A DNA stretch of 26,268 nt. It comes from a virus. The translations under genes were made by a program, and so were the position numbers. Positions 3,443 through 25,807 of this stretch are shown here, in pieces. The first letter of the stretch is position 1. Each line of letters begins with the position of its first letter. The notes beneath the pieces are model-generated. The model was not told where the DNA came from. It saw only the letters and a list, made by a program, of their open reading frames with translations, and searched no databases. The stretch is taken from positions 1 through 26,268 of the IMG/VR virus record IMGVR_UViG_3300044712_000411. One strand, written 5' to 3'.

Positions 3443-4844
3443 GGACATAATCGACACCTTATGGAGAAAAGGTGTTCTCCATTGGAAATTGAAACCAATT
3501 CAGAAGGTTATGCACGAAAAAGAGCGGACTAGCACCGCTTTAATATGGGTTGAGAATTGTTCCCGCCGTTTGGGTAAATCATATCGTTTGGCAATTAAGG
3601 CGCTTGAAGTTGGATTGACGCAACGTGAAGCGGTTATCCCATTTGCCGCACCTACCCTTAAAATGATTAGAGATATCACTCTGCCGATATTCAGGGAAAT
3701 ATGCCGAGATGCCCCAAGCGATATAAAACCAATTTGGAGACAATCGGAGGGGAAATTTCTATTTCCATCAACAAAGTCAGAAATTGTTTTGGCTGGTGTG
3801 AATAGCGGAAACGCCGAGAAACTTAGGGGACGTAAAGCCACGATTGCAATTGTCGATGAAGCCGGTTTCATTGAAAATCTTGATTATTTGGTTCAAGATG
3901 TTTTGATGCCGCAATTATTGACGACAAATGGCAAAATTCTTATGGCCTCATCTCCCAGTAGAACCCCCGCCCATGCTTTCCGTGATTATTGTATGAGAGC
4001 GCAAAGGGAAAACGTCTATTCTGAGTATGACATCTATCAGGCTGGATACACCCCTGAGAAAATAGAGAAATTCAAAAAAGAAGCAGGCGGAGAGAATTCG
4101 ACGACTTGGAAACGCGAATATTTGTGTCAATTTGTTGTAGATGCTGATTATCACATTATCCCTGAATGGCGTGATGCGTTTGCGGTAGAAATAAAGAGAC
4201 ATGAATATTTTAAATATTATTACCGCTATGTTTTCATGGATATGGGGGTCAAGGATAAGACCGTCATTTTATTTGCTTACTATGATTTTTTAAACGCGCG
4301 CTTGGTCATTGAGGGGGAAATAGTGATGCAAGGGCCAGAAATGACCACCGAGAAGATTGCTGCCAAGATCAAAGAGAAAGAAGCAACATTGTGGCCTGAT
4401 TTAAGGGTACATCGTCGCATTGCAGATAATAATAATCCTTTGATGCTTTTAGACTTGGGATCTCTTCATGATATCCATTTCAGCCCGACACAAAAAACCG
4501 GAAAGACGGAACGTACAACAATCATTGAGGCCATGGTAAATGAATTGCGGATTAATGTCGGATCGGGGAAAGTGATTGTCAGCCCGAATTGCCCTGAAAC
4601 GATTGGATGTTTAAAGTTCGGTATTTGGAATAAGAATCGCACGCAATTTGAAAGGGTTAAAGAATACGGCCATTTTGATGCACTTGCCGCCCTCATCTAC
4701 GGGAACCGCGCCATTGATAGGGTAACAAACCCTATACCGATGAATCTTGGAATATCAACCCACACGCATTTAATAATGCCAGAACCTAAAATAAATGGGC
4801 CACTAGCGGAAAATATTAAAAAGATGTTTAATTTAAAGAGATGA
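3405..4844 (+). CDS. terL: Terminase large subunit
   Basis: A 479-residue DNA-packaging motor. The ATPase domain shows a Walker A (RRLGKS, residues ~54-59), a Walker B ending in the catalytic acid (IAIVDE, ~147-152) and a coupling motif (ASSPS, ~181-185). The C-terminal RNase H-like nuclease has its conserved acids in FMDMG (D~279), IADNN and GHFDA. The protein pumps DNA into the prohead at the portal vertex and cuts concatemers. It overlaps the small terminase gene by 38 bases. ATGs at 3405 and 3411 are both possible because no clear Shine-Dalgarno is present. Its stop overlaps the portal start (ATGA). Confidence 0.95.
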   Translation: MTMDKPSLKLTSKDIIDTLWRKGVLHWKLKPIQKVMHEKERTSTALIWVENCSRRLGKSYRLAIKALEVGLTQREAVIPFAAPTLKMIRDITLPIFREICRDAPSDIKPIWRQSEGKFLFPSTKSEIVLAGVNSGNAEKLRGRKATIAIVDEAGFIENLDYLVQDVLMPQLLTTNGKILMASSPSRTPAHAFRDYCMRAQRENVYSEYDIYQAGYTPEKIEKFKKEAGGENSTTWKREYLCQFVVDADYHIIPEWRDAFAVEIKRHEYFKYYYRYVFMDMGVKDKTVILFAYYDFLNARLVIEGEIVMQGPEMTTEKIAAKIKEKEATLWPDLRVHRRIADNNNPLMLLDLGSLHDIHFSPTQKTGKTERTTIIEAMVNELRINVGSGKVIVSPNCPETIGCLKFGIWNKNRTQFERVKEYGHFDALAALIYGNRAIDRVTNPIPMNLGISTHTHLIMPEPKINGPLAENIKKMFNLKR

Positions 4845-6862
4845 TCCCTGAAAATACCGTACAACTAGAAGTCATTAACGATCAAAAAAAGACTCAAGAG
4901 CGTTTAAAGCATTATTTTGCCAATAAACCCCGCAATGAAATCGCCGCTGCTCTCATGGGTAAATATGACGATTATTGGCGTTTTCTAGAAACTTCGGGAA
5001 GATTAGATTTAATTCGACGGTCTTATAGATATTATTACCGTGGTGCAGAAAAAGCAGGTATGCTTCAATCGGGTGGAGAACAAGGCGAGTTTTTAATAGG
5101 CCACTTCAACCACTACCGCAACATAATTCAGCATCTCCTCAACATGACAACCTCTGATAAACCCGCCTTAGAGCCAAGAGCATCAAACACCGACGCAAAA
5201 AGTCAGGCTCAAACAATGATCGCATCCGGTGTTCTGGACTATTACCAACGAGAAAGGCACCTAGATAGAATTTTCAAGAAAGCAACGGAACAATCATTGT
5301 ACGCGTTTGAATCCTATGTCTGCTTAGAGTGGGATGAGAGTTTAGGCAGTGATTACGCCCTAGACGATAACACCGGAAACGTTAAAAAGAATGGGGATAT
5401 ACGCATAACAAATATTGGGCCGTTAGATATCGCCTATGATTTTTATCGGGATTCTCCAACAAAACACGATTGGCGCATTGTTCGATTTTGGGAAAACAAA
5501 TATGACTACGCCGCTAAATACCCGGAGTTTTCAGACAAAATTATCAATTTATCTTCAAGTACGTTTAATCAAAAGCAAAGAAAAACATGGTATTCCGATA
5601 TTTCAGACTCTGATTTAATTCCCGTATATCGTTTCTATCATGAAAAAACGCCCGCCGTTCCAGAGGGAAGATTCACTGAATATTTAGCAGCAGATATAAC
5701 AACCCTTGATGGGCCTTTGCCTTATAGACGTGTGAATATTTATCCCATCATGCCAGACAACCTTGACGGAACTTGTTTGGGTTATTCAATCGTCGCCGAC
5801 TTGATGCCAATTCAAGAGGCGATTGACGGTCTTATCAATACAATTTTGACCAATGCCGCCACGTTTGGAGTGCAAAATATTGCAATTCCTGAGGGTGGAA
5901 ATATTGATGTTGTTTCCGTTTCAGGTGGTCTGAACGTCATTAAATACGATTCAAAGAGCGGTGAACCGAAAGTTTTGCAGATGTTAAGTATTCCTCCCGA
6001 ATTATTTAAATTTACTGAAATGTTGATTGGAATGATGGAAACGTTGTCAGGGTTGAATTCAGTTGTAAGAGGAAACCCAGAAGCGTCATTAAAATCCGGT
6101 GCGGCATTGGCTTTGATTGCTTCTCAAGCTGTTCAATTCAACAGTGGTTTACAACAAGCTTACGTTTCCCTATGTGAAGATGTTGGAACCGGTATCATCG
6201 ACATTTTGAAACAATACGCAAATACACCTAGAATCGCGTCTATATCAGGGAAATCAAACAGAGTATATTTGAAAGAATTTACTGGCGAGGATTTGAATGG
6301 GATCAGCAGAGTTACAGCGGAACGGGTTAATGCTTTGTCAAGCACGACAGCGGGTAAAATGCAGATTGGTGACGCTCTTTTAGAACGTAATTTAATTAAA
6401 ACACCGGAAGAATATTTGCAGATTGTCACAAATGGACGACTTGAACCCTTATATAAAGCAGAGCAAACACAGTTAATGCTGGTTCAAGCCGAAAACGAGG
6501 ATTTATCCGAAGGTAAGAAAGTAACAGCGTTAATGACTGATGACCACGTTTTACACATTAAAGAGCATCAAGTGATATTTTCATCGAGGGAAGCGCGGGA
6601 AAACCCAGAGTTAATCAAGAACGGTTTAGAGCATTTGCAACAGCATATTGATATGTTGGTGAGCGGGAGCCCGATTTTAAGTATACTAGGTCAACCCCAG
6701 ATTGCACCGCCTATGCCTCCGAACGGCCCGCCAACAGGGAATGGTAGCGAAGTTGTTGATGCTACGAATCCAATAACCAAAGACGCAAGCACAGTAAATT
6801 TGCCGTCACAACCGACAAACCCGCAAACGGGTGAAAAATATGTTCCACGTGGAACAATTTAG
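4841..6862 (+). CDS. Portal protein
   Basis: A 673-residue protein starting at an ATGA overlap with terL. It has the layout of podovirus (P22-like) portal proteins. A helical N terminus (ALMGKYDDYWRFLETSGRLD) is followed by an alpha/beta stem region. A long helical core includes ADLMPIQEAIDGLINTIL (~320-337) and SGAALALIASQAVQF (~420-434), and the C-terminal ~55 residues are Pro-, Asn- and Gly-rich. Twelve copies form the ring through which DNA is packaged and ejected and which joins head to tail. The final codons (YVPRGT) are embedded in the parS-like palindrome at 6841-6856. Confidence 0.92.
   Translation: MIPENTVQLEVINDQKKTQERLKHYFANKPRNEIAAALMGKYDDYWRFLETSGRLDLIRRSYRYYYRGAEKAGMLQSGGEQGEFLIGHFNHYRNIIQHLLNMTTSDKPALEPRASNTDAKSQAQTMIASGVLDYYQRERHLDRIFKKATEQSLYAFESYVCLEWDESLGSDYALDDNTGNVKKNGDIRITNIGPLDIAYDFYRDSPTKHDWRIVRFWENKYDYAAKYPEFSDKIINLSSSTFNQKQRKTWYSDISDSDLIPVYRFYHEKTPAVPEGRFTEYLAADITTLDGPLPYRRVNIYPIMPDNLDGTCLGYSIVADLMPIQEAIDGLINTILTNAATFGVQNIAIPEGGNIDVVSVSGGLNVIKYDSKSGEPKVLQMLSIPPELFKFTEMLIGMMETLSGLNSVVRGNPEASLKSGAALALIASQAVQFNSGLQQAYVSLCEDVGTGIIDILKQYANTPRIASISGKSNRVYLKEFTGEDLNGISRVTAERVNALSSTTAGKMQIGDALLERNLIKTPEEYLQIVTNGRLEPLYKAEQTQLMLVQAENEDLSEGKKVTALMTDDHVLHIKEHQVIFSSREARENPELIKNGLEHLQQHIDMLVSGSPILSILGQPQIAPPMPPNGPPTGNGSEVVDATNPITKDASTVNLPSQPTNPQTGEKYVPRGTI
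6841..6856. promoter_or_regulatory. parS-like palindrome, candidate host ParB loading site
   Basis: TGTTCCACGTGGAACA is a perfect 16-bp palindrome and fits the near-universal bacterial parS consensus TGTTNCACGTGNAACA at every fixed position. The C/G version seen here is the form known from Pseudomonas and related bacteria. It lies in the last codons of the portal gene and ends 4 bases before the AGGAG of the next gene. With 14 fixed positions, a chance match in a window this size is expected about once in 10,000 random windows of equal base composition. I saw no second CACGTG core. Whether ParB binds it is unknown. Confidence 0.75.
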
Positions 6863-6874: not shown

Positions 6875-7885
6875 ATGCGTAAATTATTTTTATTTTTGTT
6901 TTTAATGTCGTTGGGGTTTATAGCAAGGGCCGGAATAATTTACACGGGAAATGTTGTCAATGACCCTTGTGTTGCCAAAGATACAAACTACGATCAAGAC
7001 CTTACCATAACGAATGCCAACTACCTAACCTATGTTTCTTCTCATTCTCAAGCCTCTCCCAGCGTTGTCACATTTGTAGACGGAAAGAAATCAACCGCGA
7101 CAATAACTATAAATTCATCAATCGTGGAGACACCGACTGCTTTTGTGAGAATTACCGTGGCCGGTGTTGTCTTTGATAACAACACCAATTTTCAAATGGT
7201 TTCTACAGCAAGCGGAACCGCAAAGGCTTTGTCTGATGCAATGATGGCCAACACAACGGTAAACGCCTTAATCGTTTCTACCTGGTCAGCCGCCGGAGTT
7301 GTTACATCGACATCATTAACAACGGGTTTAAATGCCTATGATTTATATACGTCTACCCCGTTCGGATTTAGGCTGAATTCTTCCTCGACAGCAAGCACAG
7401 CCACATTTTTGAACGGTTTAGCCAGCGATGTTTCATCCTCTGGAGATACAATCACAGAGACAAATCATAGGTACGGGACAGGACTAGCAGTTCTCTTATC
7501 AACCGCTTCCGGTTCATCTATCGGTGGTTTGGTAGGTGGGACGACTTATTACGCGATTGCAAGTACCACGGATTTACTCAAATTATCTACAACGAAAGCC
7601 AATGCAATTGCAGGAACAGCGATTGACTTAGGAACACAAGCGGGAAACGGAACATTTACTTTGACCCCGCTAACAATTTCAAGCAGCCCTTCCTACAAAT
7701 GGCAAGCGTCAAACGATAACCTTAATTTCATTGACTTGGCGGTTTCTAGCGTCACCATTTCTGGCGCGGGTGTTGCAGGGTGGGATCTTGGGAACGTTCC
7801 ATACCGTTATTTGAGAATTAAATATGTTGCTCCGACGAATGGGTGCGGAACTCTTAAAATTGACGGAGCCGGAAGGGATTACTAG
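6875..7885 (+). CDS. Beta-rich virion-type protein with signal peptide
   Basis: A 336-residue protein preceded by AGGAG at 6861-6865. The first ~20 residues are a textbook Sec signal: two basic residues, a Leu/Phe core (LFLFLFLMSLGF) and an ARA-G cleavage site. The rest is Ser/Thr/Ala-rich beta sequence. Residues ~91-150 resemble the 'ITxxGxxF ... ALxxAM' module also found in the genes at 13645 and 16798. Residues ~200-260 (GGTTYYAIASTTDLLKLS) match a module common in phage fibres. The C terminus (YRYLRIKYVAPTNGCGTL) is typical of a phage surface protein. Two Cys (~33, ~326) could form a disulfide. Location is uncertain: virion, periplasm or cell surface. Confidence 0.7.
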   Translation: MRKLFLFLFLMSLGFIARAGIIYTGNVVNDPCVAKDTNYDQDLTITNANYLTYVSSHSQASPSVVTFVDGKKSTATITINSSIVETPTAFVRITVAGVVFDNNTNFQMVSTASGTAKALSDAMMANTTVNALIVSTWSAAGVVTSTSLTTGLNAYDLYTSTPFGFRLNSSSTASTATFLNGLASDVSSSGDTITETNHRYGTGLAVLLSTASGSSIGGLVGGTTYYAIASTTDLLKLSTTKANAIAGTAIDLGTQAGNGTFTLTPLTISSSPSYKWQASNDNLNFIDLAVSSVTISGAGVAGWDLGNVPYRYLRIKYVAPTNGCGTLKIDGAGRDY

Positions 7886-7887
7886 GA

Positions 7888-8949
7888 ATGAAATTAAGGT
7901 TTTTAATCTTATTTTCGTTATTGATCCCATCAATTTCATTTTGTGAAAGCGAAGTGATTAGGAATAAAATATTAATTGCTGATGTTTCTGGGAACGTTTA
8001 CAACGCGAATAAATTGATATTCCCAACCAATAGCTTAACCAACAATGGTGATGGTTCCTTTACGGTTGCTGGTTTTGATACGGCCGCAAATTACACTCTC
8101 AGCGGGACCTGGTACCATTACGGGTACAACACTTTTGCCGCAGGTTTTACTGCTGGGGCAGATTCGTACATATCCGCAAAATTTGGGATTGCGACTGATG
8201 TTCCAACACACTCATTAACATTAGGATCGACAGCAACAGGCTTAACTTTTTATAACACAACAGATCAGACGACAAATTATGAGCGGACTATTACGCAATA
8301 CACTTCAAACGAATTCAGAATAACAAGCACAAGCGGGGGAACAGGGACAACTCGCCCTTTAAGATTTGTTAGCGGATTCTCCACATATTATGTTCATCCG
8401 ACTGGTGGTGGTTTTAATAATTTTCACACTTGGAATATAACGTCAACCTCGATAAATCCTTCGGCTGGGATGTTTGGTGCTTTAAGCGTGTTAGGTCAAA
8501 CGAGTGGAACTACTAAAAATTTCAGAATAGCGCCGACTATAAATCAAAGCTCAACGGCCGGATATATCGCTTTTCAAATAGATGTAACAAGCACGACCGT
8601 CGGGAGTGGGAGCAAAACGTTATTGGATGCTTCGGTGGATAGCGTTTCAAGGTTTTCTATAGATTCATTCGGTAAAGTGACATCAAGCGCAACAATAACA
8701 GCCGCCGGAACAACAGGAGCCAGGACAATAAATACCCCAAAAGGTGTTGTTAATTTTGCGGCGGCGGCGACTTCTCTTGTTGTTACAAATAGCCTTGTAT
8801 CCACATCAAGCTTTATTGATTGCACAGTAAGAACAAATGACACCACGATGAAAGCGGCCGCGTGTGTTCCCGGATCAGGTTCATTCACAATTTATCCAAA
8901 TGCGGCACCGACAGCAGAAACAGCGGTGGGATTCACGGTATCTAATTAA
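7888..8949 (+). CDS. Tail-fibre-like protein with signal peptide
   Basis: A 353-residue protein beginning two bases after the previous stop. The N terminus is a Sec-type signal (MKLRFLILFSLLIPSISFC, cleavage near residues 19-20). Next comes a ~40-residue module (IRNKILIADVSGNVYNANK, ending FPTNSLTNNGDGS) that is clearly shared with the gene at 9163. The remainder is low-complexity beta sequence typical of fibres. The C-terminal domain (VNFAAAATSLVVTNSLVS; GSFTIYPNAAPTAE) is a type I recall from many phage fibre and appendage proteins. Likely an appendage or host-surface protein; the signal peptide makes the destination uncertain. Confidence 0.72.
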   Translation: MKLRFLILFSLLIPSISFCESEVIRNKILIADVSGNVYNANKLIFPTNSLTNNGDGSFTVAGFDTAANYTLSGTWYHYGYNTFAAGFTAGADSYISAKFGIATDVPTHSLTLGSTATGLTFYNTTDQTTNYERTITQYTSNEFRITSTSGGTGTTRPLRFVSGFSTYYVHPTGGGFNNFHTWNITSTSINPSAGMFGALSVLGQTSGTTKNFRIAPTINQSSTAGYIAFQIDVTSTTVGSGSKTLLDASVDSVSRFSIDSFGKVTSSATITAAGTTGARTINTPKGVVNFAAAATSLVVTNSLVSTSSFIDCTVRTNDTTMKAAACVPGSGSFTIYPNAAPTAETAVGFTVSN

Positions 8950-8960
8950 AGGAGTTTTAT

Positions 8961-9161
8961 ATGGTTGATGAAATTATTAACGTTGGAGTTGAACCAATTG
9001 AGATTGTGCCAACAATCATAAAAGAGGGTGAACAGCATTTTGAAAAAGTCCCCGTTGATCTAGAAGCCTTGATAAAAAATCAACAGGACGTAATTGCATC
9101 ATTGCAAGTGCAAATGGATAGGGCTAACGCTACATTACAATCGTTAATTTCTGCTAGATAA
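8961..9161 (+). CDS. Small coiled-coil protein between fibre genes
   Basis: A 66-residue acidic protein with a good Shine-Dalgarno (AAAGGAG, 8948-8954). The N-terminal half is extended and Val/Ile/Pro-rich, and residues ~32-66 form a helical, probably coiled-coil tail (LEALIKNQQDVIASLQVQMD). It has no signal peptide, unlike its neighbours on both sides. It might be a trimerisation or chaperone partner for the fibre-like proteins, but this is inferred only from position. Confidence 0.6.
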   Translation: MVDEIINVGVEPIEIVPTIIKEGEQHFEKVPVDLEALIKNQQDVIASLQVQMDRANATLQSLISAR

Positions 9162-9162
9162 A

Positions 9163-11067
9163 ATGAAAATTAAAACATTACTTTTAACCACATTTATTTT
9201 ATTTTCTTGCCTTATCGTTTTTGGTGAAACGGAAAATATTAGATACAAAACTTTAATTACAGATGAAACGGGAACGCCTCTTTATAACCCGAATGTAATT
9301 AAATTCCCTGCCAATACGGTTAATGATAATGGTGACGGTTCCTTAAGTATTGAAACTGATGGAAATTTGTCAAATGCGTTTCGGTCTTATGTCACAACAA
9401 TTGGTACGACTCCCGTCGATGGCTATCGGGTGAATCAATTCTTCCTAGCGTTAGATGCGGCAGGGCTTACCAGTTATTTGGTTGACGGGTGTTTTTTAAG
9501 GACGAATCAAAATATTGGATCGTCAACGAGTTTATTGACAATTCGCGGAGCAACGTCAACAATTGTGGGATCGCCTTCTATTGGGCCAAACGGAGTTGTC
9601 ACTAACGGATCAAGTCAATATGTTTACTGGGGAGTTTCAAACACAACGGCTTCATCTGTAGCAGTAACTTATAAAGGCGTTCCTCTCACACAGGTTTCAA
9701 ATGGTTGTATTTGGAGTTACCAAAACAATACTGGTTTAGGGACGGGGGCTGCATCAAATACGGGCGGGATGGATTTACAGTATAACGGATTAACTACGGG
9801 CTATGTTTTTACAGGTCAAGATGCGACGGTGGCAGTCACAAGCGCTATCACAGACCCCACTTCGTCGAGCGCCTCAACAATCCATGCGCAAAACCCCTAT
9901 GAACAAATTGATATTGTGACGAATGACAATGCGGCCTCCCCATCATTGACGGCGTATGTCGATGGCAAACTCTGTCTCAATGACACGTCTGGAAATGTTC
10001 AAACAACAGTGGCTAGAAATCGTTTTTATGTAGGTGCGAGAGAATACAACGCTGGTGGTGGCGGTGTCCAAAATTACGGTGTCGGAACACACACAAACTG
10101 GTTTTTATTTAACAAGGTTTTAAATGCAACAGAAGCCAAAGCGTTGTCCGATGCCATGCGGTGGCTTAACCCTGCTAAAAAGAACATTGTTTTTATTGGT
10201 GATTCAACGAGCGCTTGGCTTTCGTCAAAATCAACAGACTCGTGGACTTATCAATATTCAACCTTAAAAAAAGCTTCTGATTCTAGGATTTACAATACAG
10301 CGGTCAATGGGCAAAGTACCGGATTTTTTAACACAAACTATGATGATTTCGTGAAACGTTATCGCCCCGGCGTAAATGGAGTTGATGAATCTTATGCTTT
10401 CGTGTGGCTTGGGATTAATGACATTAACGGGGGCTCTTCGGACTCGACAACCTACACCGCTTTAAAAACATTGTGGGCCTCGTTAAAACGTGACGGGTTT
10501 AGAGTTTACGCCAACACTCTCATGCCTGGGACAAGTTATACCGGAAATAAAGAGACGTATCGTGTGGCATTAACCACGTCCATATTGAGCAACACGTCTT
10601 TATATGACAACGTTTACAGGCCAGACATTCTATTCCCCGACCCTAACGATTCAATATTTTATTTAGACGGTTTTCACCTTCAAACACTGGGAAATACTGT
10701 AATGGCAAACGCAGTTTCAGCCGATACAGTCAATGTCCCCTATGTCCCATTGACCTACGTTCTAACGGATTCGGCCACAATCGCGACAAATGCCGCTCTT
10801 ATTCCCGATGGTGGTTTGGCGTATGTAACGTTGGGAGGAAATCGGACACTTGGAAATCCAACAAACCCAAGAAGCGGGCAGAAAATAACATACAGATTTA
10901 CCCAAGATGGGACTGGAAACAGGACATTGGCATTAGATACACAATTCAGTACCGGGCCTTATACAGTCACGCTTTCAACGAATCCAAATAAAACAGATTA
11001 TTTGGAAGCTATCTATAATTTGATCGCGAACAAGTGGAACATTATAAATTTCCAGAAGGGTTATTGA
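9163..11067 (+). CDS. Tail-spike-like SGNH esterase with signal peptide
   Basis: A 634-residue multidomain protein. It starts with a hydrophobic Sec-type signal (residues ~1-22) and then the N-terminal module shared with the gene at 7888 (IRYKTLITDETG, NDNGDGS). A concanavalin/LamG-like beta sandwich (~130-335) follows. Next is an SGNH hydrolase with all four blocks: FIGDSTS (S348), NGQST (G383), GINDI (N419) and DGFH (D502, H505). The C-terminal beta domain (LGGNRTLGNPTNPRSGQKI) is of a type common at fibre ends. SGNH enzymes of phage spikes remove acyl groups from capsule or O-antigen. The gene follows the previous stop by one base without its own Shine-Dalgarno, so it is probably translationally coupled. 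Confidence 0.85.
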   Translation: MKIKTLLLTTFILFSCLIVFGETENIRYKTLITDETGTPLYNPNVIKFPANTVNDNGDGSLSIETDGNLSNAFRSYVTTIGTTPVDGYRVNQFFLALDAAGLTSYLVDGCFLRTNQNIGSSTSLLTIRGATSTIVGSPSIGPNGVVTNGSSQYVYWGVSNTTASSVAVTYKGVPLTQVSNGCIWSYQNNTGLGTGAASNTGGMDLQYNGLTTGYVFTGQDATVAVTSAITDPTSSSASTIHAQNPYEQIDIVTNDNAASPSLTAYVDGKLCLNDTSGNVQTTVARNRFYVGAREYNAGGGGVQNYGVGTHTNWFLFNKVLNATEAKALSDAMRWLNPAKKNIVFIGDSTSAWLSSKSTDSWTYQYSTLKKASDSRIYNTAVNGQSTGFFNTNYDDFVKRYRPGVNGVDESYAFVWLGINDINGGSSDSTTYTALKTLWASLKRDGFRVYANTLMPGTSYTGNKETYRVALTTSILSNTSLYDNVYRPDILFPDPNDSIFYLDGFHLQTLGNTVMANAVSADTVNVPYVPLTYVLTDSATIATNAALIPDGGLAYVTLGGNRTLGNPTNPRSGQKITYRFTQDGTGNRTLALDTQFSTGPYTVTLSTNPNKTDYLEAIYNLIANKWNIINFQKGY

Positions 11068-11258
11068 TGAGTTGTTTTAATTGTGAACACGGGAGCATTT
11101 TTCATTTTGGGTATATCGGCATGAAAGGCGGGTGCTTGCCGCCTGAATCATGTTGTGATTGCCTTGGTTATAATTTTGTCCCTACCGATGATGGCGGGAC
11201 GACACCTCTCATAAAACAAGAGGAAATAAAGGAGATTCAAAAATATGGCCGAAACTAG
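11067..11258 (+). CDS. Small Cys-rich hypothetical protein
   Basis: A 63-residue protein. The ATG at 11067 is preferred to an upstream in-frame GTG because AGAAGGG at 11054-11060 is spaced 6 bases away and the start overlaps the previous stop (TGATG). Six Cys are arranged as CFNC near the start and GCLPPESCCDC in the middle, together with His9 and His13. This would suit binding of one metal ion. The C terminus overlaps the scaffold gene by 14 bases. The role is unknown. Confidence 0.6.
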   Translation: MSCFNCEHGSIFHFGYIGMKGGCLPPESCCDCLGYNFVPTDDGGTTPLIKQEEIKEIQKYGRN

Positions 11259-12183
11259 CACAGCCGCACCGACACAGCCGCAAACCGGAAACGCTAAACC
11301 GGACGTAAATGCCCCCGTTGACGGTAAAAAAACGGTAGACGCTCAACCTAAAGCAACGGATCAAAAGCCGCCGGAAGGTTTAACGCCAGCAGAAAAGAAG
11401 GCTTGGAAATTGGCGGTCAATGGGAAAGAGACTGAACTTGATATTTCAGGAATCGAGTTTAAAGATCCTGCTTTAGAATCAAAGCTGAAAATGTTGGTTC
11501 AAAAAGGTTTGGGAGCGGACGAAAAATTTGAAAGATCATCGAAAGTTGAAAAGATGATGGAACAGTTTGTTTACTTGCTTAAAAATGACCCTGTTAAGGC
11601 GTTGACTCATCCGATGTTCGGCCATGACATGCGGAAATTGTCCGAGGAATACCTAGTTAAACAGCTTGAATTAGAGCAAATGGACCCGCGTGACAGGAAA
11701 GTTAAAGAATATGAAGAGCGGATGAAACAAATTGAAGAGGAACGCCAATTAAAAGAAGCAGAAGAGTCAAGATTAAAAAATGAAAAATTGCGTGAACATT
11801 ATTCAAAGGAATATTCTAACGATATTCTTTCAACACTTAAAAATTCAGGGTTGCCACAGTCTCCAATGACGGTAAAACGAATGGCGCACTATATGCACCA
11901 AGGTTTACAGCAGGGTGTCGAATTAAAAGCCGCAGATGTGATTGATATTGTTCGGCAAGATTATATGAACGACATTAAATCTCTCATGGGCGGTCTTGAT
12001 GAAGATAATTTATTGAATTTGTTGGGTGAGGATATCAGCACGAAAGTAAACAACGCAAGAATGAAGAAATTAAAAGGCGTTGGAAATCCTGTTCCGGTAT
12101 CAGAACAACCGAGTGTATTGAATAAATCGCCAAAATATAGAAGCACAAACGATTTTGAGAAGTTAATAAGTCAAAGAATTTAG
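11245..12183 (+). CDS. Putative scaffold protein
   Basis: A 312-residue protein directly upstream of the major capsid gene, the usual place for the scaffold. It has a disordered Pro/Ala/Thr/Gln-rich N terminus (~1-48) and then a short folded part (LAVNGKETELDISG). A highly charged coiled coil follows (~155-185, VKEYEERMKQIEEERQLKEA), and the tail is helical and basic. Scaffolds direct capsid assembly and leave the head before or during packaging. AAGGAGAT at 11227-11234 is a strong ribosome site. Sequence similarity between scaffolds is low, so the call depends on composition and position. Confidence 0.8.
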   Translation: MAETSTAAPTQPQTGNAKPDVNAPVDGKKTVDAQPKATDQKPPEGLTPAEKKAWKLAVNGKETELDISGIEFKDPALESKLKMLVQKGLGADEKFERSSKVEKMMEQFVYLLKNDPVKALTHPMFGHDMRKLSEEYLVKQLELEQMDPRDRKVKEYEERMKQIEEERQLKEAEESRLKNEKLREHYSKEYSNDILSTLKNSGLPQSPMTVKRMAHYMHQGLQQGVELKAADVIDIVRQDYMNDIKSLMGGLDEDNLLNLLGEDISTKVNNARMKKLKGVGNPVPVSEQPSVLNKSPKYRSTNDFEKLISQRI

Positions 12184-12196
12184 CCAAAGAAACGGA

Positions 12197-12252
12197 CATG
12201 GACGCGCAAGCCATCCATGGAAGGCAACAATCAAAAAGACGCGCAAGCTATC
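12197..12252 (+). repeat. 15-bp direct repeat with hairpin upstream of the capsid gene
   Basis: GACGCGCAAGCCATC at 12201-12215 returns as GACGCGCAAGCTATC at 12238-12252, with one mismatch. The 37-base offset is not divisible by three, so this is a nucleotide-level element rather than a protein repeat. The first copy lies inside an inverted repeat, CATGGA (12197-12202) and TCCATG (12214-12219), with an 11-base loop. The 120-base gap has no convincing gene, and the capsid Shine-Dalgarno follows at its end. It may be a regulatory or mRNA-processing element. Confidence 0.55.
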
Positions 12253-12303
12253 TTCACGAGGTTGAAATCCGAGGCCAGAAAAAAATAAAAAGGAGAAACT
12301 TAT

Positions 12304-13578
12304 ATGGCAACAGTAGCAACAAACTTAAGTGGACTCTTTAAGGAAACCTATGCCGACGTAGTTATTCAACTCGTCCCTGAGGTTGCCAAACTGGTGAAGA
12401 TGGTGGATTTCGTCCCCAGTGATAAAGAGATCGGAAACTTGTATCACCAACCCGTGATCGTGAATAACGAGCATGGTGTGACTTACGCAGCTCAAAACGG
12501 TGGAGCCTTTACGCTTAATGCCGCGATTGCGATGAATATGCAGGACGCTCAAGTACCAGGCGCCCAAATTATTCTTCGCTCCGCCATTGATTATGAAAGC
12601 GCCGCTCGTGCGTCTAATGATCGAAAGGCTTTTGTGAAAGCAACAAGCTTACTTGTAAAAAACATGATGGAATCTATGCGGAAACGCGTGGAAGTTGCTT
12701 CATGGTATGGTGCAGACCCAGACGGATTGGGTCAGACTTCATCCTCAGCTAATGCCAGTGCCACGAGTACGGTTTTGCAATTAACGACCGCTTCTTGGTC
12801 AACCGGTATTTGGGCTGGTTCTGAAAATTCTACTTATCAGTTCTATAAAGATTCTGATGATTCTCTTGTTTCTTCTAGCACAGACTCTATTTTCACTATT
12901 TCCGCCGTTGACGTGGAAAACCGAAAATTGACTGTGACCGGAACAGCGACAGGAATTACTGCTCTTGACATTGCCGCCGCCGCTGGTGCGTTGAATATTT
13001 TCTACAACGGAGCCAAAGCCAAGGAAATGTCAGGACTGTCAAAAATTCTTCAAAACACCGGAACATTGTTCAACGTTTCCGCTACTACATACAACCTGTG
13101 GAAAGCGAATTCGTACAATGTTTCTTCGACCGCGTTCACGTTTGGAAAAGCCATTTCCGGCTTAGCCAATGCCGTGGGCAAAGGACTTGAGGAAAAAGTG
13201 ACCCTGTGGTTGAACCCGCGAACTTGGGGAAATATCAACACAGACCTGGCCGCACTCCGACGCATGGATTCTTCATGGAAAGCTGAAAAAGGTGAGAATG
13301 GAAATAAATCTATTACCTATTACAGCCAAAATGGTGAGATTGAATTGGTTTCTCACTCTGTCATCAAAGAGGGAGAGGCTTTTGCAATTCCTATGCAACG
13401 CGTGAAACGTCTTGGAGCCGTTGACATTACATTCAAAACCCCTGGAATGGGCGAAGATGAGTTTTTCTTGCATCTTGCCGACTCTGCCGGGTTTGAATTG
13501 CGATGCTATACGGATCAGCACATTTTCTTAGAAACGCCCGCTAAGGCGGTTCGTTACTATGGGATTGTGAATACTTAA
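12304..13578 (+). CDS. Major capsid protein
   Basis: A 424-residue protein with AAAAAGGAG just upstream. It follows the pattern I know for the HK97-fold capsid proteins of P22-like and related podoviruses. There is a helical N terminus, a long helix (DRKAFVKATSLLVKNMMESM) and then a variable Ser/Thr-rich insert (~145-200). The conserved part follows (EMSGLSKILQNTGTLFN; TLWLNPRTWGNI), and the protein ends with PMQRVKRLGAVDITFKTPGM and RCYTDQHIFLETPAKAV. It forms the icosahedral shell. Codons ending in C (AAC, ATC, TTC) look more frequent than in neighbouring genes, as expected for the most abundant product. Confidence 0.9.
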   Translation: MATVATNLSGLFKETYADVVIQLVPEVAKLVKMVDFVPSDKEIGNLYHQPVIVNNEHGVTYAAQNGGAFTLNAAIAMNMQDAQVPGAQIILRSAIDYESAARASNDRKAFVKATSLLVKNMMESMRKRVEVASWYGADPDGLGQTSSSANASATSTVLQLTTASWSTGIWAGSENSTYQFYKDSDDSLVSSSTDSIFTISAVDVENRKLTVTGTATGITALDIAAAAGALNIFYNGAKAKEMSGLSKILQNTGTLFNVSATTYNLWKANSYNVSSTAFTFGKAISGLANAVGKGLEEKVTLWLNPRTWGNINTDLAALRRMDSSWKAEKGENGNKSITYYSQNGEIELVSHSVIKEGEAFAIPMQRVKRLGAVDITFKTPGMGEDEFFLHLADSAGFELRCYTDQHIFLETPAKAVRYYGIVNT

Positions 13579-13590
13579 TATTGTTTAAAT

Positions 13591-13620
13591 GCGGTGGGGT
13601 TCATTCTTGGGCCTCACCGC
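13591..13620 (+). terminator. Hairpin terminator after the capsid gene
   Basis: GCGGTGGGG (13591-13599) can pair with CCTCACCGC (13612-13620) in a 9-bp stem with one G-U pair, closing a 12-base loop. It is followed by TTATAAAATTT, so the U-tract is weak. A partial terminator after the capsid gene is common in phages and keeps capsid mRNA in excess over downstream genes. Confidence 0.6.
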
Positions 13621-13644
13621 TTATAAAATTTGAGGAGATAAACT

Positions 13645-14205
13645 ATGTCAAGAGCTAGAATTTTAATCAATGTCGATGAAACGTCAGGAACGCTGGACGC
13701 TATTTTAAGGCCTTTAGCTACAGATCCAGCGCCGGGGATTCAACGATTGGCCGCTTATTTAGAAGGGATTGCCGGAGGCGTTTGTAATGGAAGCGTGAGA
13801 ATTACCACGAATTGCGTAAAAGCCAGTCAAACTGGAACTTTTACAGATAAACCAACAGCCAATGACACAATCACTATTAATGGAGTTGCTTTTACTGCTA
13901 AAAATTCAGGGGCCGCCGCTAATGAATTCAACATCGCGAATAGCGGAGTTGCCGCCACGGATGCAATAAACAATGCCACAGCATTGGCCGCCGCGATCAA
14001 CGCATCAACAAGTGCAAAGATCGTTAATCAGGTAACCGCATCATCTTCCGGTGCCGTTCTTACTCTTACCGCGAATATCCCCGGAACCAATGGAAATTTA
14101 TTCACCGTTACTGAAGCTATGAATAATTTCACATTAGCCGGAACAACGTTTGCTAGTGGAACAGAGGGAACCGAAGTTATTATGAATCACGGAATAACAG
14201 TCTAA
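13645..14205 (+). CDS. Putative capsid decoration or head-associated protein
   Basis: A 186-residue protein with a strong GAGGAGAT site. Residues ~1-55 (SRARILINVDETSGTLDAIL; GIQRLAAYLEGIAGG) form one unit. Residues ~70-175 are an Ala/Thr-rich beta module (DTITINGVAFTAK, then DAINNATALAAAINASTSAK, then a terminal strand set). The same kind of module is inserted in the nozzle gene and, more distantly, in the gene at 6875. The place after the capsid gene and the beta-rich, adhesin-like sequence suggest a head decoration protein. This is an inference from position and composition. Confidence 0.6.
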   Translation: MSRARILINVDETSGTLDAILRPLATDPAPGIQRLAAYLEGIAGGVCNGSVRITTNCVKASQTGTFTDKPTANDTITINGVAFTAKNSGAAANEFNIANSGVAATDAINNATALAAAINASTSAKIVNQVTASSSGAVLTLTANIPGTNGNLFTVTEAMNNFTLAGTTFASGTEGTEVIMNHGITV

Positions 14206-14219
14206 AATAGGGGTTTTCT

Positions 14220-15011
14220 ATGTCTCAATCCGCTGTATTAAACGGAGTTACTTATACGATCCCAGACGTAGGGGAATCCCTACCGTCTGTCAATTGGGGT
14301 CAAAATCTAACCGATTATTTTACTGCTATTCCAAACGCCGTTCTTCAAAAAACAGGAGGAAATTTTACTCTAACGGCAGATGTGGATTTCGGTTCTAGTT
14401 ATGGTATTAAATCTACTTATTATAAATCGAGAGCTACCAATATATCTTCCGTTGGTGTTGGAAGGTTTGGAAATGCAGAACTTTTAGGGTGGAGAAATCA
14501 AGGGAATACCGCTGATATTACTCTAGGAGTAGATTCATCTAATATCCTAGCCCTTGTAGGAAATACGGGGCTTGCGATAGATTCAACTCGGAGATTTTAT
14601 TTTGATGGTGGTGGCGACACATACGTCGCAGAATCTTCAGCTAATGTTTTGAGAATAACTACCGGTAGCTCTGTTTCAGCAGAATTTTATTCAACGGCAA
14701 TAGCTCTTAAAGGATGTTTTGTTACAAGTCAGACATTATCAGATAATGTAGATGTCACTGGGGTTACGTTCGTAAGATACGATGGGGCGGGAATCCCTTT
14801 AACATTAAATGGGTTAAGTTCTGGGTCATCGAATCAAACAATATATATTTTCAACATAGATTCTTCGGCAAGCGTCACGATAAAGCATAATAATGCTGGA
14901 GGAACTCAAAAATTCTTAACACCTGGAGGAACTGATTACGTTTTAACAGCTCGATCAGGAGTCACCGCATTATTTGATATTTCAGGGTTTTGGGTTATTT
15001 TGGATAAATAA
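14220..15011 (+). CDS. Tail-fibre-like protein
   Basis: A 263-residue protein. The N terminus (VLNGVTYTIPDVGESLP, then WGQNLTDYFTAIPN) is the attachment domain I recall from many phage fibres. It is followed by a pattern also common there (GNFTLTADVDFGSSYGIKS, YYKSRATN, ELLGWRNQGNTADITLGVDS). The C-terminal ~95 residues (NVDVTGVTFVRYDGAGIPL; KFLTPGGTDYVLTARSG) form a beta domain. Unlike the genes at 6875, 7888 and 9163, it has no signal peptide. It is probably a virion fibre or head fibre. Confidence 0.75.
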   Translation: MSQSAVLNGVTYTIPDVGESLPSVNWGQNLTDYFTAIPNAVLQKTGGNFTLTADVDFGSSYGIKSTYYKSRATNISSVGVGRFGNAELLGWRNQGNTADITLGVDSSNILALVGNTGLAIDSTRRFYFDGGGDTYVAESSANVLRITTGSSVSAEFYSTAIALKGCFVTSQTLSDNVDVTGVTFVRYDGAGIPLTLNGLSSGSSNQTIYIFNIDSSASVTIKHNNAGGTQKFLTPGGTDYVLTARSGVTALFDISGFWVILDK

Positions 15012-15020: not shown

Positions 15021-15254
15021 ATGTCTAAAATAATAATAGATATACCGGAAGGAGTAGCAAATAGAATTTTCGACTCTTTTTCATTTGAATATAAATACAA
15101 CTCTTTAACAGACGGAACGAAATCAGATTTCGTTAAAAAAATAATAACTCAATTTATTAAGCGAACTGTTAAAGATTATGAATATTCAAGAGCTATTAAA
15201 AACGCTCAAAATCAAGTTTCAGCAGATATAAACGAAAATATAAACATAGGTTAA
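15021..15254 (+). CDS. Small conserved phage protein
   Basis: A 77-residue protein starting MSKIIIDIPEGVANRIFDSF and continuing SDFVKKIITQFIKRTVKDYE. From memory, similar short proteins recur in tailed phages at this position (one beta strand, then helices), without an assigned function. The ATG at 15021 is preceded by AGGGGG at 15011-15016; a GTG at 15018 is also in frame but too close to that site. It may act in morphogenesis or as a chaperone. Confidence 0.65.
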   Translation: MSKIIIDIPEGVANRIFDSFSFEYKYNSLTDGTKSDFVKKIITQFIKRTVKDYEYSRAIKNAQNQVSADINENINIG

Positions 15255-15257
15255 AAA

Positions 15258-15575
15258 ATGAGAACTATTAAAAATATTGATGCTCAAATTGAACATTTTA
15301 TTGACGATAATTCTTTCCCGGAAGATCAAAAAAAGCAGATCCCGACATTTAGACAAATGTTTAAAGCCGCTGTGGGGTTGAGCCTGTCAAAAGATGGTGA
15401 ACAGGCGATTGATTTATACCAGTTGGGATTAAAACTTAAAATTTCAGAATCAGATATAAATTTAGAAGATGCCGAATTTAAACTTTTAAAAGAAAAATGT
15501 GGGGAGAATCCAGCCAAATGGATAGGCCATTTTCACGGCCAAGTGATGCAAAAACTAAAAGATTCTGAAAAATAG
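15258..15575 (+). CDS. Small conserved phage protein
   Basis: A 105-residue, largely helical protein (PTFRQMFKAAVGLSLSKDGE; AIDLYQLGLKLK; LEDAEFKLLKEKCGENPAKW). This shape, a short protein with a middle 'D..Q.. L..KL' segment and a C-terminal 'W..G.. .Q.L', recurs in phage structural modules without a settled function. It starts four bases after the previous stop. A role in head or tail assembly is inferred from the neighbours. Confidence 0.65.
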   Translation: MRTIKNIDAQIEHFIDDNSFPEDQKKQIPTFRQMFKAAVGLSLSKDGEQAIDLYQLGLKLKISESDINLEDAEFKLLKEKCGENPAKWIGHFHGQVMQKLKDSEK

Positions 15576-15583
15576 GGGATATC

Positions 15584-15859
15584 ATGCAGAACGTTGATTT
15601 AAAGAAAAAATTGCTTGAAGAGTTGATGAATATGGTTCAGGGTCTTGACGGAGACAAATTACCTAAAAAAGGCGTGATGATCGCTGAAATTTCAAAAGAA
15701 GATCCCATGGAAGAAAAAGACGAAATGATGGATTCTGGAAGCTATGGAGAAAATGAAGAGGGGTGCGAGGATCACAGTGAAGAAAATGGGGAAGATGATC
15801 TAATGAGTTCAGTTGATCCACGTATTTTAAAATTAGTTAAAAAAATGAAAGGGATGTAA
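15584..15859 (+). CDS. Small acidic low-complexity protein
   Basis: A 91-residue protein with AGGGGAT upstream. The N terminus is a short charged helix (DLKKKLLEELMNMVQGL). Residues ~40-77 are almost entirely Glu, Asp, Gly, Ser and Met, strongly acidic and probably disordered, and the C terminus is a basic helix (ILKLVKKMKGM). The function is unknown. It sits between two morphogenesis genes and is one base from the adaptor start. Confidence 0.6.
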   Translation: MQNVDLKKKLLEELMNMVQGLDGDKLPKKGVMIAEISKEDPMEEKDEMMDSGSYGENEEGCEDHSEENGEDDLMSSVDPRILKLVKKMKGM

Positions 15860-19683: not shown

Positions 19684-21729
19684 ATGGCATATATTCTAAA
19701 CGATGATGAAGAGCAAAAGAAACGAGAGCAAGAGCAAGGAATCCCTGTTTCTGGGACGCAAACAGGTTCTTTGCAGGGAACAGAAAAACCCGTCGAGAAT
19801 ACAGCGAAGCCGAATTCTGCTTTTGTTGATGTTGCATCCTACCTAAACGCAAATAAACCTCAAGCATTAGAAACCGCTGGCCGTGTCGCTGGTAAATTAG
19901 ATACGGAAAGAAACACCCTTTCATCTTCAATTCGTGACACGTCTAACCAATATGGGCAGAAAATAGATACAGGGACAATTCGCCCCGACACGGATTTAGT
20001 TGAAAGGGCCGCAACAAATCCGACGGACTTTATTAAAAATTCAGCAGACTTTGACAAGTTTAAGCAACAGCGTGACGCTCAATATACGGGGCCAGGAAGT
20101 TTTTCGGAGTCCCAAGATTATGCGAATTTAAGCAACAGCGTAAAAACAGCACAAGAAAAAGCAAAAGGGATTGACACTCAAGCGGGGCGAAAAAGCTATT
20201 TGTACGAAATCGGGAATAACCCAACAGCGGGGGTGGTTTCTCTTGATGACCTTCTTATTGGTCAAGATCCAAACGCTAGGCAGAAATTAACACAGTCAGC
20301 GGAACAATTTAACACTCTTGCGCCAAGTCTTGAAAGTGAAACTAAAAATCTTTCCGATAAACTTGCGAATGCAAGGGCGCAAACAGAACAGGCAAAGACC
20401 GGGGTGCAGAATAGATTTTTAGGTGAAAATGGTGTCGTTCCTACCTTTGATAAGGATTTACAGGGACGAGTTTCCGATGAAAGATCAAAGGCGTTAAATA
20501 AGCAAAAAGATTATCAGGATTTGATTAAAGCCGGGAAACCATTGACGGATGAACAATACGCATCATTAGGAATTACAGGAACCGATTGGAATTCACTTCA
20601 AAATAACAGGGCATGGTTGAACACCGATTGGAAAACAAATTTTGATGTATCCCCATATTTAACAAATAGAAACCCCGATGTTGAAATAACAAAAGGGAAT
20701 GTTGCATCAAGTGATGATTATGCAAAAGAAGCGGCTTTCCAGAAATTACTGGGGAATGACTTGCCGATATTAAATGATAATGATTCAAATATAGCAGGCA
20801 CATTTAATAGAAATTTATTCGATTTTAATAAGGACGCTTTCTCGAATTCATCTAATTTATTGAAAGAGAAGGATTTGATTCTTCTTAATGAATTACTCAA
20901 TGGTCAAAATGAAGCAACAATCCCAGGAGTTGTAGGCATGGTTCCAAATGTAAACGTTTCAAACTATGGATTTGAACATAACCCTGAGGGTTATAAGAAT
21001 TATTATGATTTAGCATATAACGTTTTAAACAGGAATCAAGACGGATTGCCTCAAGTAGAAAAAGATTGGCTGAATTGGTGGGGTCCATACTTATCCGGGT
21101 CTACAAACGTAATGCCAACGACCGGATCGAGTCAACCTCCTCCTAGATCATTACAGCCAACAACGCCAGAGGGTAACATTCCTTCAAGCGAAACTGGTCG
21201 GTTAAGGATACGCGACGGTCAACAACAATGGTTTGACGGTAACAATTGGATAACCGCTCCCACAGAGGTAATTTATAGGGACGCGAATGGGAATCAAACT
21301 GGACCAACAAGTGGCTCGCAGCCATTCCAATTTAATTTTAATACGGGCACCTATGAAAAATTGGGTGATGTTATCCAGCCGCCGCCGGAGTCTCCTTCAA
21401 TTCCAGCAGTTCCGACAGTTCCATATATTCCTATAGCGCGAGAAAATCCCCTCCCTATTCCTCCGAATTTACCGACACCCCCTGTAGGAGGTTACCCCGA
21501 ACCGAATATACCTCCTCCAGACGACGGAGGAACATATTCATGGGACCCTATAGCGTTACGATGGATAGTTAAACGCGATACGCCAACGCCTCCGGCTGGA
21601 CCTCCATATAGTCCACCAGGTGGTGAATGGTATAGGATCGTGAACGGATCAGTTTATCGTTTTAATCCACAGACTAACCAATACGATCCGCCAAGGCCAT
21701 CACGCCCTGGTGTTGTTCGCGCATTTTAA
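19684..21729 (+). CDS. Putative internal virion / ejection protein, Pro-rich C terminus
   Basis: A 681-residue protein with an AAAGGTGAT site. Residues ~1-270 are highly polar and helical, rich in Gln, Lys, Asp and Ala, like podovirus ejection proteins. Residues ~270-480 contain an alpha/beta part (PEGYKNYYDLAYNVL; VEKDWLNWWGPYLSG). Residues ~480-681 are Pro-rich linkers joining two short Trp-containing segments (RIRDGQQQWFDGNNWITAP; YRFNPQTNQYDPP). The position between nozzle and the other ejection genes supports release into the host with the DNA. Direct evidence for the function is absent. Confidence 0.62.
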   Translation: MAYILNDDEEQKKREQEQGIPVSGTQTGSLQGTEKPVENTAKPNSAFVDVASYLNANKPQALETAGRVAGKLDTERNTLSSSIRDTSNQYGQKIDTGTIRPDTDLVERAATNPTDFIKNSADFDKFKQQRDAQYTGPGSFSESQDYANLSNSVKTAQEKAKGIDTQAGRKSYLYEIGNNPTAGVVSLDDLLIGQDPNARQKLTQSAEQFNTLAPSLESETKNLSDKLANARAQTEQAKTGVQNRFLGENGVVPTFDKDLQGRVSDERSKALNKQKDYQDLIKAGKPLTDEQYASLGITGTDWNSLQNNRAWLNTDWKTNFDVSPYLTNRNPDVEITKGNVASSDDYAKEAAFQKLLGNDLPILNDNDSNIAGTFNRNLFDFNKDAFSNSSNLLKEKDLILLNELLNGQNEATIPGVVGMVPNVNVSNYGFEHNPEGYKNYYDLAYNVLNRNQDGLPQVEKDWLNWWGPYLSGSTNVMPTTGSSQPPPRSLQPTTPEGNIPSSETGRLRIRDGQQQWFDGNNWITAPTEVIYRDANGNQTGPTSGSQPFQFNFNTGTYEKLGDVIQPPPESPSIPAVPTVPYIPIARENPLPIPPNLPTPPVGGYPEPNIPPPDDGGTYSWDPIALRWIVKRDTPTPPAGPPYSPPGGEWYRIVNGSVYRFNPQTNQYDPPRPSRPGVVRAF

Positions 21730-21738
21730 GGAGATATT

Positions 21739-22677: not shown

Positions 22678-22686
22678 AGGTGAATT

Positions 22687-23799: not shown

Positions 23800-25370
23800 T
23801 GACAGATCAGGAAGAACTTGAATTCTTAACCCTTAAACGCAAACGGGCAATGGCGATGCAAACGCCGGAGCCTATGGTAGAACCCGCTTCAAAATTAAAG
23901 AGTTTGGCTTTAGGTGGCGTACAAGGTGGAACTTTTGGTTTTGCAGATGAAGCGGAAGGCGCAATACGCGCTTTGGGTGATGAAACGTATAAGGAAGGCC
24001 GTGATGCCGCAAGAAAACGCTATGAAGAAGCGGAGGCGGCCAACCCTAAAACATATATGGCAGGACAATTGGGAGGAGCTATTCTACCCGTTATTGCTGC
24101 TGAAATGGGGAGTGCAGGAACAGCCACGCCCGCCGTTGGTGCTAGATTGGCTTCAATGCTTGCCCCAAAGACTTTACAGGGAGTTATGGCATTGGGAGCC
24201 GTGCAAGGATTGGGAGAATCAAAGAATGAATCGGCACCTGCTCAAGTTTTAGATGCCGCAAAAGGGGCTGGGTTATATGGGGCTTTTCATATGGGCGGGA
24301 AAGCGGTGTCACCAGTTATTGATCCAATTGCCAATAAATTGGCGGCCTTGGGTGAACTCGTAAGCGGAAAATTTAAGAATGTGGCCATGGATACAGGAAA
24401 AAGAGCTGTGGGATTTACAAAAAGGCTTCTTAATACTCCGCTTAAAGAAAGGCAGGCAAATGAAGCGGTTAGCATGGCTTTAGAAAAAGGAATAATAACC
24501 CCTCTCTCAAGCACGAAAGCAATGCAAGAAGCGGCAGAATCCGTTTCCAAGGAAAGCGGCCAAGCCATGGGAAAATTTTTACAAGATCAATCGAATACGG
24601 GGCTTATGTTCGACCCATTAAAAGCCATTGAAGATTTAAACAAATTGCGGCCAAAAGGTTTAAATATTGGAGAGAATCAGAAAATAAACACGCTCATAGA
24701 TAATGCCTTGGAAACGGTAAAATCAAGAGCAAAACAAAATCATGATCCAAATAGTTTGGCCTCTGGAATTCCATCAAGCAAGTTTATCGACTGGGAAGGC
24801 GCACGAGAATTAAAAAGTTTGCTTCAGAAAATGGCAAATTATGACACCACGATGAGTGGGGCCGCCAATGAAGTAAAAAAGAAAATAGCAGGATCTATGC
24901 GGAATTCATTTATGGGGCAGCTTGAAGAATCTTCATTGAAAGGTGGCGGGGAAAAAGGTTTTGATGCTTTTGCAAAAAATGTCAAAGACTACGGATCAGC
25001 TGAAACGTTACAAGATGCATTACAAAATAGATTGTCTTCTGAAAGTGGCAACGCAACGATTGGATTACGGGATGCGGCATTAGGTGGAGCAGAACTGGCA
25101 AACACTGGGAATTTTGGTAAAGCGGCCATGGTTGCCGGAGGTTTAAAACTTGGCAGAAAATATGGGAATCAAACTATTTCTTCCGGTGCGAACGCTATAG
25201 CGAGAAGAATTGAAACAAACCCCGCCGTTTACGGTAAATACGCAAATGATTTTATGACATTGGCAAAACGAGGCGGTTCGGCATTGGCCGCGCACCATTT
25301 TATTTTGTCGCAAAGTGATCCTGAATATCGGAAATTGGCTGAGAAATTGGATAAGGACGAGAACAATTGA
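23799..25370 (+). CDS. Putative ejection protein with glycine-rich hydrophobic segments
   Basis: A 523-residue protein. After a polar N terminus it has an Ala/Gly-rich, moderately hydrophobic region (~35-150) containing GVQGGTFGFADEAEGAI, MAGQLGGAILPVIAAEMGSA and LQGVMALGAVQGLG. Helical regions with many Lys, Glu and Gln follow. Such 'GG..GFADE..GA' segments are typical of phage ejection proteins. No lytic transglycosylase motif was found. Its stop overlaps the TTG start of the NlpC/P60 gene, so the two are translationally coupled. Confidence 0.66.
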   Translation: MTDQEELEFLTLKRKRAMAMQTPEPMVEPASKLKSLALGGVQGGTFGFADEAEGAIRALGDETYKEGRDAARKRYEEAEAANPKTYMAGQLGGAILPVIAAEMGSAGTATPAVGARLASMLAPKTLQGVMALGAVQGLGESKNESAPAQVLDAAKGAGLYGAFHMGGKAVSPVIDPIANKLAALGELVSGKFKNVAMDTGKRAVGFTKRLLNTPLKERQANEAVSMALEKGIITPLSSTKAMQEAAESVSKESGQAMGKFLQDQSNTGLMFDPLKAIEDLNKLRPKGLNIGENQKINTLIDNALETVKSRAKQNHDPNSLASGIPSSKFIDWEGARELKSLLQKMANYDTTMSGAANEVKKKIAGSMRNSFMGQLEESSLKGGGEKGFDAFAKNVKDYGSAETLQDALQNRLSSESGNATIGLRDAALGGAELANTGNFGKAAMVAGGLKLGRKYGNQTISSGANAIARRIETNPAVYGKYANDFMTLAKRGGSALAAHHFILSQSDPEYRKLAEKLDKDENN

Positions 25371-25807
25371 AACATTCAGAAATTCCGTGGTCAAAAATGA
25401 TCGAGTTCGGTAAAAAGTGTGTTGGGAAACCTTATGTTTATGGGGTTGAAGTTAATATTCCTACGTTCTTAAAAGATCCAAACCCCGACAAAATTGTGGC
25501 CTTAGATTGTTCTGAATTGGTTGAAGTTCTTTACGCTTTGGTTGGAATTAATGTCCCTGACGGGTCATATAATCAGGCCAAAATGTGCCGAAGAGTTCCA
25601 TTTGAATCTGTTTTGATTGGGGACATGGGTTTCAAATGGTACCCGGACACACAAGTAATTCACCACGTTGGGTTATATTTAGGGAATAAAGAGGTTTTAG
25701 AGGCCAAGGGGAAAGCGTTTGGTGTTGTAGTAACACCTTATGATGACTATGTTAAATCTTCGCATTTTGCATATTGGGGACGTTTAAAAACAATAGAAGA
25801 TGCTTGA
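25367..25807 (+). CDS. NlpC/P60-family peptidoglycan endopeptidase (TTG start)
   Basis: A 146-residue protein with the catalytic pattern of NlpC/P60 cysteine peptidases: ALDCSELV (C48) and IHHVGLYLG (H100), plus the EAKGKAFGVV segment downstream (E112 as a possible third residue). These enzymes cleave peptide stems of peptidoglycan, typically at the gamma-D-Glu-meso-diaminopimelate bond. The start is TTG at 25367, with AAGGACG upstream, overlapping the previous TGA. It could be the endolysin, followed by small membrane proteins, or a virion-borne enzyme, because it is coupled to the last ejection gene. No signal peptide. Confidence 0.88.
   Translation: MKHSEIPWSKMIEFGKKCVGKPYVYGVEVNIPTFLKDPNPDKIVALDCSELVEVLYALVGINVPDGSYNQAKMCRRVPFESVLIGDMGFKWYPDTQVIHHVGLYLGNKEVLEAKGKAFGVVVTPYDDYVKSSHFAYWGRLKTIEDA

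Follow-up and report, generated by a model that had tools for sequence, protein, structure and literature searches.

It is taught that the virions of tailed phages assemble in the cytoplasm. Why, then, would a phage place what look like Sec export signals on three neighboring fibre-like genes of its structural cluster? Such signals are unexpected, since the whole phage particle is normally put together within the cell. We addressed this question in a 26.3 kb record of an uncultured virus, analysed over its whole length of 26,268 nucleotides (the window). Its genes run from terminase through a P22-like portal, the three signal-bearing genes, a scaffold-like gene, the capsid gene, a gene starting at 13645 and a fibre adaptor gene at 14220, followed 3' by a SU10-type adaptor (PF24175, 9.6e-8), tail and ejection-type proteins and an NlpC/P60 lysin. 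The P22-type portal, scaffold and capsid genes thus stand in the order of a P22-like portal podovirus. We refer to the portal-scaffold interval as the slot and to genes by their start positions; ORFs of the window were called mechanically (n = 34). The main features are as follows, a slash marking a predicted cleavage site.

4841..6862, + strand: P22-like portal protein bordering the slot upstream (PF16510, 8e-12; phrog_156, 1.8e-20)
6875..7885, + strand: slot gene 1, predicted signal-bearing fibre/adhesin with a C-terminal beta-sandwich domain, 336 aa (homologues in L133 and L033)
6875..6931, + strand: signal peptide predicted at residues 1-19 of slot gene 1, ARA/GIIY (rule-based caller, not SignalP)
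7888..8949, + strand: slot gene 2, predicted signal-bearing fibre, 353 aa (rule-based signal call)
7888..7944, + strand: signal peptide predicted at residues 1-19 of slot gene 2, with an uncertain cleavage site (rule-based caller)
7945..8079, + strand: N-terminal adaptor-like module of 7888, common to 9163 (63 aa, signal included, at 44% identity)
8695..8934, + strand: C-terminal fibre-tip domain of 7888 (50% identical to EBPR podovirus 3 gp15)
8961..9161, + strand: 66-aa ORF between the fibres, without signal (no confident family match)
9163..11067, + strand: slot gene 3, predicted signal-bearing esterase fibre, 634 aa (PF13472; rule-based signal call)
9163..9225, + strand: signal peptide predicted at residues 1-21 of slot gene 3, VFG/ETEN (rule-based caller)
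9226..9363, + strand: N-terminal adaptor-like module of 9163, common to 7888 (pairwise match with 7888)
10192..10695, + strand: GDSL/SGNH hydrolase domain of 9163 with GDS, G, GxND and DxxH blocks (PF13472, 1.8e-10)
10663..11037, + strand: C-terminal fibre domain of 9163 (common to cyanophage and Methylophilales phage proteins)
11245..12183, + strand: scaffold-like protein bordering the slot downstream, without signal (homologues at the same place across relatives)
12304..13578, + strand: major capsid protein, without signal (phrog_14242, 1.4e-8; homologues in relatives)
14220..15011, + strand: conserved tail-fibre adaptor gene, leaderless in the window (signal on the orthologues of L121, L122, L123 and L168)
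25367..25807, + strand: NlpC/P60 peptidase, probable endolysin, without signal (PF00877, 2.2e-13)

A 74-aa cysteine-rich ORF (11034-11258) also overlaps the 3' end of 9163.

Genes 6875, 7888 and 9163 lie where the original prediction had placed them, between the portal and the scaffold-like gene, and its claim of Sec-type N termini was borne out by a rule-based caller (charged n-region, hydrophobic core and the -3/-1 rule, rather than SignalP), which matched these three and no other of the 34 ORFs. The N termini read MRKLFLFLFLMSLGFIARA before GIIY in 6875, MKLRFLILFSLLIPSISFC before ESEV in 7888 and MKIKTLLLTTFILFSCLIVFG before ETEN in 9163. All three have a positive n-region, a hydrophobic core and small residues at -3 and -1, with 7888 borderline at -1 (Cys or Ser) and its cleavage site the weakest of the set. 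Cleavage would leave mature proteins beginning with GIIYTGNVVNDPCVAK (6875) and ETENIR (9163). With the rule-based caller, shuffled versions reached the protein's own score in 16 (6875), 6 (7888) and 0 (9163) of 5000 trials each; a looser caller flagged 3.1%, 2.1% and 0.8% of the respective shuffles at all, from which the probability of obtaining all three by chance is about 5e-6. Lipoprotein signals were considered and rejected, since inspection by eye showed no h-region ending in the canonical lipobox [LVI][ASTVI][GAS]C: 7888 reads ISFC (Phe at -1), 9163 reads LFSC (Phe at -2, mid-core), and 6875 has no Cys at that place.

We then asked what kind of protein each signal precedes. The closest relative among the loci listed, L133 (portal 66% identical to that of the window), carries a homologue of 6875 as its first slot gene. 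The mature parts of the two are 43% identical, with the alignment starting right after the signal, and the signals themselves differ in sequence, as expected if a signal is kept for its function. The small C-terminal beta-sandwich domain of 6875 is also encoded, leaderless and immediately 3' of the portal, in L025, L027, L028 and L033 (in the last at 12089-12700, 40% identity over 131 aa), and the L133 homologue matches tail PHROGs (1e-7 and 2e-6). Together, these leaderless homologues and tail matches indicate that the body of 6875 is of phage tail type. Its AlphaFold model was modest (pLDDT 67), and all matches of the model in the PDB had E > 0.04 and were only loosely lectin- or discoidin-like. 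A cysteine pair (32/324) is kept in L133; cysteine numbers in the other members of this set gave no clear argument for disulfides.

Genes 7888 and 9163 have in common an N-terminal stretch comprising the signal and a 45-residue module (44% over 63 aa, E = 7e-10); the module was not found elsewhere in the fetched loci or phage records. The fibre-type assignment of the C terminus of 7888 is based on its match to EBPR podovirus 3 gp15, itself annotated as hypothetical, and the C terminus of 9163 is homologous to a Synechococcus phage fibre protein. The description of all three as tail-fibre-like thus held for 6875 and 7888, and 9163 goes beyond it: we found a GDSL/SGNH esterase domain that is intact in sequence, overlooked in the first reading, with a PF13472 score of 42.1 bits against a cutoff of 32.9 and hydrolase blocks at residues 346 (GDS), 380 (G), 417 (GxND) and 502 (DxxH). 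The AlphaFold model of 9163 was unusable (pLDDT 32). The best reading of the three genes is that they encode phage fibre/adhesin proteins, one of them an esterase fibre, predicted to be made with cleavable Sec signal peptides.

To examine how widespread such signals are, we collected related loci from viral contigs through portal alignments, keeping the best 80 loci per scan; the contigs are partial, and the comparison set held 109 distinct related portals. The slot proved highly variable, being empty in about half of the relatives and accepting many gene types, and filled slots among the loci listed hold fibre-like or miscellaneous genes that are mostly leaderless. Signal-bearing slot genes occurred in seven phages including the window, which fall in two neighboring portal clades, one of the window, L133 and L129 and the other of L121, L122, L123 and L168 (slot gene 1 of L122 was counted by eye and with the looser caller, not the strict one). 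L076, in the clade of the window, has no signal on its slot genes. Mapped on the portal tree, slot signals required 2 changes versus 6.9 expected, a value reached by 0 of 500 shuffles. A strict-caller match in L120 (15486) was judged spurious, and a fibre of L128 flagged as signal-bearing was discounted as an internal start. In most members the n-region is short and charged, the core hydrophobic and the cleavage site of A/G type. In L133, signals precede the 6875 homologue, an alpha-galactosidase in slot 2 (GH27; PF16499, 1.9e-22) and a small protein after the leaderless fibre adaptor; we tried to align this alpha-galactosidase with 9163 as one architecture and rejected the idea, as there was no above-chance alignment outside the signal.

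Signals were also found beyond these two clades. L179, a phage with Mu-like head genes and a portal unrelated to that of the window, encodes a signal-bearing homologue of 6875 (40%) and, next after it, a fibre that also bears a signal and has an SO2946-like C-terminal domain. The original prediction had also turned on whether homologues keep the hydrophobic N terminus: it is present in L133, L121, L122, L123, L168 and L179 and absent from L025, L027, L028 and L033. Across the window, L133, L121, L122, L123 and L168, 18 of 20 fibre-type proteins begin with a signal, as against 0 of 49 core proteins of virion and lysis (Fisher 1e-14, which overstates independence because the six phages are related; the two gene lists were drawn up by the analyst after the signals had been seen).

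The most telling comparison came from the fibre adaptor common to the family, of which 14220 is the window's representative. The original prediction took the lack of a signal on 14220 to make the slot signals specific. This stands within the clade of the window, where 14220, the main fibre, is leaderless, as is the L133 fibre adaptor, and fails outside it, for the orthologue is signal-bearing in L121, L122, L123 and L168. In these four phages the predicted end of the signal coincides with the start of the leaderless orthologues; for example, L121 reads ARA/YQTYTINGIPYLFPDV beside MAVNLTINGTNFLYPEE in the leaderless L019. This junction is the strongest point for signals that are functional and cleaved, and it predicts that mature fibres would begin at the adaptor's usual start residue, having arrived via Sec. 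A search of the same four contigs, two of which are about 39 kb and may be incomplete, found no second adaptor-type fibre.

The simplest explanation of these observations is that the signals function and lead to Sec export, and late translocation and cleavage are, judging from the sequences, very probable. Late in infection, the products of 6875, 7888 and 9163 would cross the inner membrane via Sec, be cleaved and fold in their mature fibre/adhesin forms outside the cytoplasm. The capsid and tail machine would be built inside the cell; a holin would open the membrane at lysis, as the signal-less NlpC/P60 lysin implies, and the mature fibres would join the virions last. In P22 and T4, tailspikes or fibres are known to be attached late, to particles that are otherwise complete. 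We put forward this loading of exported fibres at lysis tentatively, as a reading that may well be right; it agrees with the L121-clade junction, the tail-type bodies and the signal-less lysin. A tailed-phage lineage with two-compartment virion assembly, its capsid and tail machine cytoplasmic and its Sec-exported fibres attached at lysis, is likewise quite possible, if less likely than not. An envelope-related assembly route, which had also been suggested, is unsupported, the portal, capsid, adaptor and ejection proteins all being without signals.

The exported proteins might instead never enter the virion and act, as late adhesins and enzymes, on the envelope or surroundings of the infected cell, a possibility we take seriously without expecting it. 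Their roles could then, again tentatively, include deacylating or masking receptors, blocking superinfection and re-adsorption to debris, and loosening surface polysaccharide for release. The leaderless main fibre of the window and L133 suggests that the virion fibre stays inside in that clade, so that the signal-bearing proteins of the window could be extra, non-virion products, and several signal-bearing proteins of relatives are enzymes that could work free: the L133 alpha-galactosidase and, in the distant P22-type podovirus L004, a GH28 protein, found along with a LamG lectin among several slot proteins with signal-like N termini (those of these two read by eye). The intact SGNH motifs of 9163 fit the same picture, but such domains, like lectin domains, are also commonplace on virion tail fibres (PMC13123978). 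Also against free action, the conserved adaptor itself bears the signal in four relatives in which no other adaptor-type fibre was found, and 6875 has a body that matches tail-type families, with homologues that occupy the same slot without a leader. On balance, loading onto virions at lysis is slightly favored over free action.

Both readings presuppose export and cleavage. That the hydrophobic N termini stay uncleaved, as membrane anchors or hydrophobic assembly elements of a cytoplasmic fibre, is improbable: the weak cleavage site of 7888, the long, signal-anchor-like n-region of slot gene 1 in L122 and the rule-based nature of the predictions leave some room for it, but the prevailing n-regions, cores and cleavage sites are those of ordinary signals, and a retained anchor does not predict that cleavage in the L121 clade would restore the leaderless N terminus exactly. 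We consider it very unlikely that the signals are a passing feature, gained by recombination with secreted host proteins and of little effect on the phage. A slot so variable and so permissive is where such gains might be expected, but several different signals stand on adjacent genes and are kept as signals despite sequence divergence, and they occur in two portal clades and in the Mu-like-head phage L179.

If the signal-bearing fibres are virion proteins, as in the favored reading of loading at lysis, the rule of cytoplasmic assembly has an exception; if they are not, phages export a set of late adhesins and sugar-active enzymes that has so far gone unrecorded. T5 encodes a superinfection-exclusion protein, Llp, a small lipoprotein exported to the envelope, where receptors could be affected. 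The window proteins resemble it in their predicted export and possible effect on receptors, but they are large, beta-rich and fibre-like and lie in the structural cluster. Sec export of tailed-phage proteins by a signal peptide during infection is known for endolysins, Lys44 of Oenococcus phage fOg44 and the SAR endolysins (PMC6116005); these are lysis enzymes, whereas the window bears its signals on fibre/adhesin genes and has its own NlpC/P60 lysin without one. SGNH hydrolases are similarly established on tail fibres and tailspikes, as in gp63.1 of E. coli phage G7C and in Klebsiella prophage fibres (PMC13123978), an arrangement like that of 9163; signal peptides go unmentioned in the main text of that study, whereas the enzyme fibre 9163 starts with a Sec-type signal. 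L004, podovirus ctLwi270 from Manatee Spring (MW202554), is alike in that lectin, GH28 and beta-rich proteins of its slot have signal-like N termini, but its portal is only 19% identical and its slot proteins are different. In a survey of phage DGR target proteins, these are stated to be without signal peptides (PMC6199706), and five rumen phages have 0 to 2 signal peptides each (PMC5723332). We found no published signal-bearing tail fibre or Sec-exported virion fibre of a tailed phage in the open-access literature, covered mostly at the level of titles and abstracts.

Additional searches bore on the host and wider relatives of the window. Single-protein scans with the portal and with the 67-aa signal module gave no confirmed relatives, and a terminase scan gave three, all weak. 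Of two genome-contig scans, one returned none and the other three MAG contigs from a mixture of phyla, a scatter too wide to point to a host. Among isolated phages, a distant Silvanigrella phage (L003) was the sole near-complete portal relative; in its record, a stretch with the terminase start and neighboring genes occurs twice (21111-22679 and 30344-31741) around a run of N, a repetition that may stem from assembly.

Several other genes of the compared loci deserve mention. L022 encodes a leaderless slot protein (12717-14561) in which a long insert is repetitive and rich in cysteine (CSTYTGAGQATCETHTGVGC-like), something uncommon in phage fibres, and a thioredoxin-like slot protein (15210-15734; SGCSFCDKMKPVF). 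A slot gene of L093 (15547-16362) has a patatin-like N terminus (GGGSKG...GTSVGALNA). L121 carries an HNH-like gene (15384-15854) at the usual place of the 13645 homologue, and L123 a GIY-YIG-like gene inside the slot (11454-12011); as read by eye, both are probable homing endonucleases. Finally, Synechococcus phage Ssp-JY42 (L013) encodes near its fibre genes a 786-aa protein (9931-12291), without a Pfam match, that begins with a textbook signal (MKRLILSLLAVLQLLLQPAQAWA).
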